34,417 bases of DNA from Chloroflexota bacterium (GTDB lineage Bacteria > Chloroflexota > Dormibacteria > Aeolococcales > Aeolococcaceae), in assembly GCA_005880445.1 (NCBI GenBank), contig VBGJ01000150.1:1-34417 (forward strand), in the 5' to 3' direction. Both the position numbers and the translations under genes were made by a program. The notes under the pieces were generated by a model. The model worked only from the letters and a program-made list of their open reading frames with translations, did no database searches and was not told the DNA's origin. Shown here piece after piece: positions 7,659 to 10,537 of the stretch (position 1 is its first letter; every line of letters starts with the position of its first letter).

Positions 7659-10537
7659 GGCTCACCACCGATGTCTCCTTCCCAGCTCGCGAGCGCGTCG
7701 CCGCGCTCCCGAAGCACCACGCTCGCCAGCGTCTCAGCAGCGAGCCAGGGCTGCCAAGCATCGACGGCGCGAGCCACGTCACCGGAGGGATCGACCATCA
7801 GCGTGATGCGCTCCTCCACGCGCAATTCCGCCCGTCGCCGCAGCTCGTTGACCTTGCGACTGAGCTCGCGCGCGAGCCACTCCAGCCGAAGCTCATCGGT
7901 GATCTCGGTGTCCAAACTGACGCCCTCGTGACCCTCGGTGACCGGTGCGTACCGGACGCTCTTCACGTTGAGCTCGTCGGCGAAGATTGCTTCGAGCTCG
8001 GGGTCCATCGGAGCACCCGAGACTGTCGCGGCACGCAGGGGCTGTCGAATTCTCATCTGCGCTGTGGTCCGGGCCGCGAGCCCGTCCTCGACAAGACGCC
8101 GCAGTCGCTCCATCTCGTGCAGCACGTCGGGATCGGTCCAGGATCCGTCCATCACCGGGTAATCGGTGAGGTGCACCGAATCGGGAACTCCATCGACCGG
8201 AGCGTCGTCGCCGTCGAAACCAGTCAGATTTCGGTACATCCGCTCGGCCACAAACGGCATGAAGGGCGCGATGAGCCGTGCGGTGGTGACGAGAGCCGTG
8301 TGCAGCGTCGCATACGCCGAGCGCTTGTCGGCCGCGGCGGCCCGCTCCCCTTTCCAGAAGCGGCGCCGGCTGCGGCGTACATACCACTTGGAGAGGTCCT
8401 CGACGAAGCTCTCAACGGAACGGCACGCATCCTGTGCGTCGTACGCATCCATGCGATGACGCACCACGTCCACTGTATGGGCCAGCCTCGCCAGGCACCA
8501 GCGGTCGAGCACAGGCAGCTCGGCGATCGCGGGGAGCGTTGCGGTCGCAGGGTCGAATCCGTCGATCTCCGCATACGTGATGAAGAACGAGTAGATGTTC
8601 CACAGCGTGAGCATGAACAGGCGCACGACTTCCTGGAAGCTCTCTTTCGTGACACGGAGGTCCGTGGCCAGCCCGCCGGCTGAGTAGAAGAACCATCTCG
8701 TTGCGTCGGCGCCGAACTCGTCGAAGGCTGCCATCGGATCGAGGACATTGCCCCGACTCTTGGACATCTTCTTGCCCGCGCGATCGACGACCACGCCCAC
8801 CACCACACAGTTGCGGTACGCGGGTGCGTCGAAGAGAAGTGTGCTCTCGGCGAGCAGCGAGAAGAACCAGCCGCGCGTCTGATCGAGGCTCTCCGATATG
8901 AAATCCGCCGGAAACGTGCGCTCGAAAAGGGCCTCGTTCTCGAAAGGATAATGCCGCTGGGCGAAGGGCATTGCCCCTGAGTCGTACCAGCAGTCCAGGA
9001 CGTGCGGCACGCGGCGCATCACGCCGCCGCACGCTTGACAGGGAAGGGTGATCGAGTCGATGAACGGCTTGTGGAGATCGTCCGCGGCGGTGAGCCCCAC
9101 CTCCGCGGTGCTGCCAATGCAGCGTTTCTCGCCGCACGCCTCGCAGACCCAAATGGGAAGTGGAGTACCCCAGTATCGAGTGCGCGAGAGATTCCAGTCG
9201 ACCAGGTTCTCCAGCCAGTCGCCCATGCGCCCGTCGCGGATGTGCTCTGGGTGCCAGCCGACGGAGTGATTGTGGTGCAGCAGGCGGCTCTTGACCGCCG
9301 TCGTGCGGATGAACCACGAATCGAGCGCGTAGTACAGGAGTGCCGTGTCGCAGCGCCAGCAGAATGGATACGTGTGAGTGATGCGCTCCGCGCGATACAG
9401 CATCCCCTGCTGGCGCAGATCGTCGATGATCTTCGGATCCGCGTCCTTCACGGACATGCCGGCATACCGTCGCTGCCCGTCGAGGAAGCGGCCGTCGAGC
9501 CCAACGACGTGACGGATCGCGATACCCAGTCGCTGGCACAGCTCGAGGTCGGCGACGCCATATGCGGCCGCGGTGTGCACGATGCCGGTACCCTCATCCA
9601 TGCTCACCAGCTCCGGCGCGGCAACGACGACAAAGGCCAGCCCGTCGGGGATCATGTCGGTGAACAGAGGCTCGTACGTGTCGTCGACAAGATCCGAGCC
9701 GCGCATCTCCTCCAGCACCTCGTAGCCGGGGTCGAGAACCGACAGGCGCTCCTTGGCCAGGATGTAGCTCTCACCGCCCTGACTCACCCGCACATAGGTT
9801 TCGTGCGGGTGCACCGCCAGCGCCACGTTTCCTGGAAGCGTCCACGGAGTCGTGGTCCACGCTAGAAAGAAGGTCGTTCCATCCGAATCGTTGACGCGGA
9901 ACTTGACGTAGACGGAGGGGTCGGGCGTGTCCTCCTGGTATCCCAAGCTCAGCTCGTGCGACGACAGGGATGTCTGGCAGCGGGGACAGTACGGCGCAAC
10001 CCTATATCCCGAGTAGAGCAGGTCACGATCCCATAGCTGCTTCAAGCTCCACCACACGGACTCGATGTACGTTCCGTCATACGTGCGATAGGGATGGTCG
10101 AGGTCGAGCCAGAAGCCAAGGCGCTCGGTCATCTCGCGCCACTGGTCGATGTACCTGTTCGTCGACTCCTTGCACAGCGCGTTGAACCGATCGACGCCAT
10201 ACTCCTCGATCTGCTTCTTCCCGCTGATCTTCAGCGCGCGCTCGACCTCGAGCTCGACCGGGAGCCCGTGCGTGTCCCAGCCCGCCTTGCGCTCCACAGA
10301 GAACCCGGCCATCTGCTTGTAGCGCGCGAAAACATCCTTGTACGCGCGAGAGATCACATGGTGGAGACCGGGCAGACCGTTCGCGGTGGGCGGTCCCTCG
10401 TAGAAGACGAAGGGAGGTGCGTCTTTGCGCCACTCCAGCGTGCGCTCGAATACGCGATTGTCCCGCCAGAGCTGGAGAACCTCCACCTCCGCTTCTGCGA
10501 AGCGGGCGCGGCTGGTCACAGGAGAATACCGGGGCAT
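7634..10537 (-). CDS. ileS: Isoleucyl-tRNA synthetase, type 2, with GXHH signature
   Basis: Charges tRNA-Ile with isoleucine. The 967-residue product has the class I catalytic fold split by the CP1 editing insert, KMSKS at 590-594 and an anticodon-binding C-terminus. The motifs [14 protein letters not shown] and [15 protein letters not shown] are of the eukaryote-like type 2 (IleS2) branch. The HIGH motif reads G57-L-H-H60: the first and third positions are swapped from HXGH to GXHH. Start: ATG 10537 is preferred because TATCCT, a good -10 element, lies 8 nt upstream and overlaps the alternative TTG 10546. No T-box leader is present. It overlaps lspA downstream, a common ileS-lspA pairing. 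Confidence 0.97.
   Translation of the reverse strand: [967 protein letters not shown]

Follow-up and report, generated by a model that had tools for sequence, protein, structure and literature searches.

A swapped GLHH signature motif in the housekeeping isoleucyl-tRNA synthetase of an uncultured Dormibacterota genome, and its predicted link to mupirocin hyper-resistance

We asked if the isoleucyl-tRNA synthetase (IleRS) encoded within a 34,417-nucleotide contig from a Chloroflexota bacterium (VBGJ01000150.1 of assembly GCA_005880445.1; this whole stretch is called the window) carries its HXGH signature motif with the first and third positions exchanged, and what such an exchange would mean for the cell. 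A preliminary description of the window had stated that a few type 2 enzymes (IleRS2) with this exchange are hyper-resistant to mupirocin. In substance this was right: a 2023 paper in Nature Communications described the G/AXHH form and its hyper-resistance (Ki in the mM range), with structures and with mutagenesis of the motif in each direction (PMC10485003). The words "a few" were wrong, as the prokaryotic survey in that paper found G/AXHH in 86/163 IleRS2, HXGH in 77/163 IleRS2 and HXGH in 158/158 IleRS1 (PMC10485003), and 272 of 301 phylum genomes had the swapped form in our own census. The G/AXHH form is not rare; it accounts for over half of the prokaryotic IleRS2 in the 2023 survey. The features of the window that bear upon the question are collected in Table 1.

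Table 1. Features of the window at and around ileS (positions are those of the whole window).
Feature	Position	Strand	Basis or remark
lspA, signal peptidase II	7149..7658	minus	TIGR00077
ileS, type 2 isoleucyl-tRNA synthetase	7634..10546	minus	970 codons from TTG; likely ATG start 10537
C-terminal half of DUF5915 (PF19302) domain	7640..7942	minus	profile match above cut-off
KMSKS motif, intact	8756..8770	minus	residues 593-597, TTG numbering
residue 66 (Ser)	10349..10351	minus	tends to change with motif form; exploratory, not significant
GLHH, swapped form of HXGH signature motif	10358..10369	minus	sequence and ungapped alignment
yggS, PLP-binding protein	10593..11306	minus	TIGR00044
nrdR	11325..11855	minus	TIGR00244
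ftsZ	11901..13157	minus	TIGR00065; frame as listed, true start probably downstream
ftsA	13120..14535	minus	TIGR01174

The reverse complement of the four motif codons (10358-10369) is GGT CTC CAC CAT, specifying Gly-Leu-His-His. These are residues 57-60 if translation begins at the likely ATG and 60-63 if it begins at the TTG upstream (the start from which KMSKS and residue 66 are numbered). When the protein was aligned to PDB entries by phmmer, GLHH fell without gaps upon HVGH of Thermus thermophilus IleRS (1ILE), upon HVGH of Priestia megaterium IleRS2 (8C8V), and upon GVHH of 8C8W. With Gly at motif position 1, His at positions 3 and 4, and an intact KMSKS, the enzyme has the G/AXHH form, and both the location of GLHH at the HIGH position (residues 57-60) and the normal KMSKS given in the preliminary description were correct. 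The source assembly is fragmented (251 contigs), which might suggest that these codons were missequenced, misassembled or misaligned; however, relatives assembled independently and having 65-75% identity show the same swapped motif, and the alignment around GLHH is free of gaps, so that we reject this explanation and consider its probability close to nil. GLHH is neither chance nor sequencing error because the Dormibacteria relatives share the swapped motif (one genus excepted, see below).

The curated ileS model TIGR00392 scored the protein at 861.6 bits (cut-off 621.4), identifying an isoleucyl-tRNA synthetase, and PF00133, PF08264 and part of PF19302 were matched; its catalytic domain is intact. 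The type of the enzyme was evident from phmmer, which scored type 2 structures at about 853-860 bits and the IleRS1 of P. megaterium and Staphylococcus aureus at about 297-310 bits, and from trees prepared with FastTree and IQ-TREE, as the earlier assignment to type 2 had proposed. The DUF5915 match, above cut-off, covered profile positions 95-193 of 195 and left the first ~95 positions unmatched. Every scanned Dormibacteria enzyme, together with one Dehalococcoidia enzyme, matched this second half alone (the set being the window, L035, L012, L023, L030, L031 and L045), whereas the other enzymes matched nearly the whole domain. Taking DUF5915 as a type 2 marker is our own reading from its presence in these enzymes, made without a curated rule, and the half match counts against the explanation that we favor below.

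The genes of Table 1 form the order ftsA-ftsZ-nrdR-yggS-ileS-lspA, which recurs at least partly in relatives; the ftsZ to lspA portion was given in the preliminary description, and the TIGR models confirmed it. (Divergent from ftsA, a 185-codon frame at 14489-15046 on the plus strand scored 26.9 bits against PF10604, polyketide cyclase/lipid transport, cut-off 27.4 bits.) Among named genomes, the nearest is a Ca. Dormiibacterota MAG (L035, 73% identity). The window assembly comprises 2.2 Mb in 251 contigs and is 85.7% complete; within it neither a protein search nor the PF00133 profile detected a second IleRS, and the other PF00133 matches are best read, from their identity and length, as other class I synthetases. 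At this completeness a second ileS could still exist; as far as the assembly shows, the conserved locus and the single ileS make this the housekeeping enzyme, in accord with the preliminary description. The gene might instead be a MupA/MupB-like resistance gene that was acquired, and the MupA and MupB models do match the protein (772 and 766 bits), as would be expected of any IleRS2; these scores are far under the curated cut-off of 1900, the cell-division locus is common to relatives, and only one ileS was found, so that we reject acquisition as very improbable.

What the exchange would do to this enzyme can be judged from its studied homologues. For the Deinococcus radiodurans IleRS2 (ALHH) the mupirocin Ki is 6.6 mM, and it falls 823-fold when ALHH is changed to HVGH (PMC10485003). 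The opposite change, HVGH to GVHH, raised Ki about 200-fold or more in two canonical type 2 enzymes: from 0.20 to 35 micromolar for T. thermophilus and from 1.08 to 460 micromolar for P. megaterium (PMC10485003). In the structures, the third His stands in for the first in catalysis, an arrangement permitted by a displaced helix tip that is absent from IleRS1, and a modelled clash with mupirocin accounts for the hyper-resistance of the swapped enzymes (PMC10485003). By homology, a ring nitrogen of the third His of GLHH would do the catalytic work of the first His of HXGH, and this His would be expected to clash with mupirocin, as modelled for homologues in which Ki rises by as much as about 1000-fold and reaches the mM range. 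If the window enzyme behaves like these homologues, the cell would have an intrinsic, target-level hyper-resistance to mupirocin. The size of the effect depends upon the enzyme background, since the published Ki values differ (the T. thermophilus GVHH enzyme reached only 35 micromolar). We conclude, with a probability of roughly 0.87, that ileS of the window encodes the housekeeping and sole detected type 2 IleRS, in the natural G/AXHH form, and that the bacterium would be intrinsically hyper-resistant at this target, as the homologues suggest; the mupirocin resistance of this particular enzyme is a prediction.

The Dormibacteria homologues that were read across the motif all had G[ILVT]HH or ATHH, with the exception of genus g7. 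ATHH, the rarer Ala form known also from Deinococcus, was seen in L117, L119 and L120 of Dormibacteria family f4. Across the phylum, which the named relatives indicate to be Chloroflexota as defined in GTDB, a swapped-motif pattern preceded by Pro matched 179 of 400 genomes, and the canonical pattern PHxGH matched 7/400. The Pro-limited pattern of this first census missed divergent DGPITANNPMGVHH enzymes; sampled families without a pattern match had divergent IleRS2 with DGPITANNPMGVHHAWGRT, also swapped, and a wider pattern covering both contexts was found in 272 of 301 genomes (~90%), with no match to a reversed control pattern among the matches listed in that census. The window enzyme is a further member of the described G/AXHH class, and the swapped form is the rule in the phylum. 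To pass from one form to the other, two codons must change at four or more bases in total. The half-way pattern PHxHH matched 0/400 phylum genomes, and neither HXHH nor GXGH was present in the loci read or accepted from any pattern match within the phylum. The other half-way pattern, P[GA]xGH, gave a single match (GPPDANERPAQGH in G402), which was judged to be chance because the IleRS of G402 has GVHH.

The exception, g7, is a sister genus from the family to which the window genome belongs (G006, G015, G020 and G024; L131, L132, L133 and L134); it has an IleRS2 with HYGH that shares about 40-43% identity with the window enzyme. In the three g7 genomes checked (L216-L221 for yggS and lspA), yggS adjoined lspA with about 85-110 bases between the matches, a gap so small that there is no room for ileS; the HYGH gene sits elsewhere, and in L131 adjoins mfd-like and mazG-like genes. 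The nearest relative of the g7 enzyme within the sequence set came from a member of family f39 in the phylum. The arrangement in g7 suggests that a canonical gene replaced the ancestral swapped ileS, and not that a point reversion took place. The earlier suggestion that resistance may be intrinsic to the lineage was upheld insofar as the motif form is kept nearly class-wide; it is not strictly lineage-wide, because g7 appears to have replaced the gene with one for a HYGH enzyme.

The published history of the swap comprises at least two gains and one reversion (PMC10485003). Our trees were built without the motif columns (four columns were dropped for the larger one): the FastTree tree of 153 sequences required 10 changes between swapped and canonical forms, 7 of them forced by well-supported branches, and the IQ-TREE tree of 70 rows required 8 changes, 6 forced. 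These trees suggest that the two forms were exchanged at least 6-7 times, an estimate whose exact value is soft because the deep branches are arranged differently in the two trees and the sampling was centered on the window protein. Two Anaerolineae enzymes, L042 (GTHH) and L051 (HIGH), were neighbors in both trees and differ in the motif, and would make a good pair for study of a switch. One column, residue 66, which closely follows the motif in the chain, tended to vary along with it. Among swapped enzymes the counts for this residue were Ala 62, Gly 18, Ser 12 and Thr 6; among canonical enzymes they were Thr 43, Gly 5, Pro 2 and Ala 1. In 6 independent pairs it followed the swap in an average of 4.6 and in none went the opposite way (median p 0.0625). 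Picked from many columns and below significance, residue 66 was the sole column worth naming, and its possible coupling to the swap is a lead only.

In this lineage the swap could be viewed not as an antibiotic adaptation but as an alternative, near-equivalent state of the IleRS2 active site, anciently fixed and occasionally toggled, with mupirocin resistance as a by-product. The ~90% of sampled phylum genomes with the swapped form, the 6-7 forced switches, the similar catalytic efficiencies of the D. radiodurans ALHH enzyme and canonical IleRS2 (PMC10485003), and the fact that g7 lives with a HYGH enzyme all favor such a view; yet two canonical enzymes were impaired by as much as 10-fold in KM or kcat when their motif was exchanged (PMC10485003), so the swap is not free in every background, and the authors of that work favor antibiotic selection as its origin. 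We put this alternative-state view at less than even odds. It is compatible with our conclusion that the window enzyme is a housekeeping, presumably hyper-resistant G/AXHH IleRS2, the one being concerned with the origin of the motif and the other with the function of the enzyme; fixation throughout the phylum is consistent both with an ancient adaptation and with a by-product. A wider reading, again at less than even odds, is that the swap is the default of Chloroflexota, Dormibacteria included, that it was switched at least 6-7 times with no half-way form surviving and with residue 66 tending to go along, and that it was undone in one genus by replacement of the whole gene. If this is true, the catalytic core would flip repeatedly between two states, the swap would not be a rare resistance mutation, and mupirocin resistance might be a by-product.

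A swapped ileS was also seen on a plasmid: Rhodococcus opacus plasmid NZ_CP095404.2, typed as mobilizable, encodes an IleRS2 with GTHH (L215:17971-21126) among condensation-domain, AMP-binding and phosphopantetheine-binding (NRPS-like) genes, and this might be a candidate self-resistance copy of a natural-product cluster. The gene displacement in g7, the repeated switching, and the plasmid copy within a natural-product-like cluster go beyond the main text of the 2023 paper. In a large lineage whose members are mostly uncultured, a catalytic motif regarded as near-invariant is normally rearranged, and target-level mupirocin resistance is predicted there without any acquired gene. The repeated switches and the g7 displacement offer natural comparisons for asking if antibiotics or protein architecture drive the swap.

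Compared with known systems, the window enzyme resembles the G/AXHH IleRS2 of D. radiodurans (ALHH) and Streptomyces griseus (PMC10485003), which have the same exchange of positions 1 and 3, a normal KMSKS and a housekeeping role; it differs from these in having GLHH, in coming from an uncultured Dormibacterota lineage, and in matching DUF5915 in its second half only. T. thermophilus IleRS (1ILE) is among its closest solved structures (859.9 bits), lies next to the Dormibacteria group in the larger tree and has in common with it an Ala/Ser-like small residue 66, but has the canonical HVGH, interpreted as a natural reversion (PMC10485003). The type 2 enzyme of P. megaterium supplied the best PDB match in its GVHH mutant (8C8W, 860.3 bits), whereas the wild type (8C8V) is canonical HVGH. 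MupA and MupB of staphylococci are related in sequence to the window enzyme and confer mupirocin resistance, but are dedicated extra copies, MupA often being plasmid-borne, and the window enzyme scores below the cut-offs of both.
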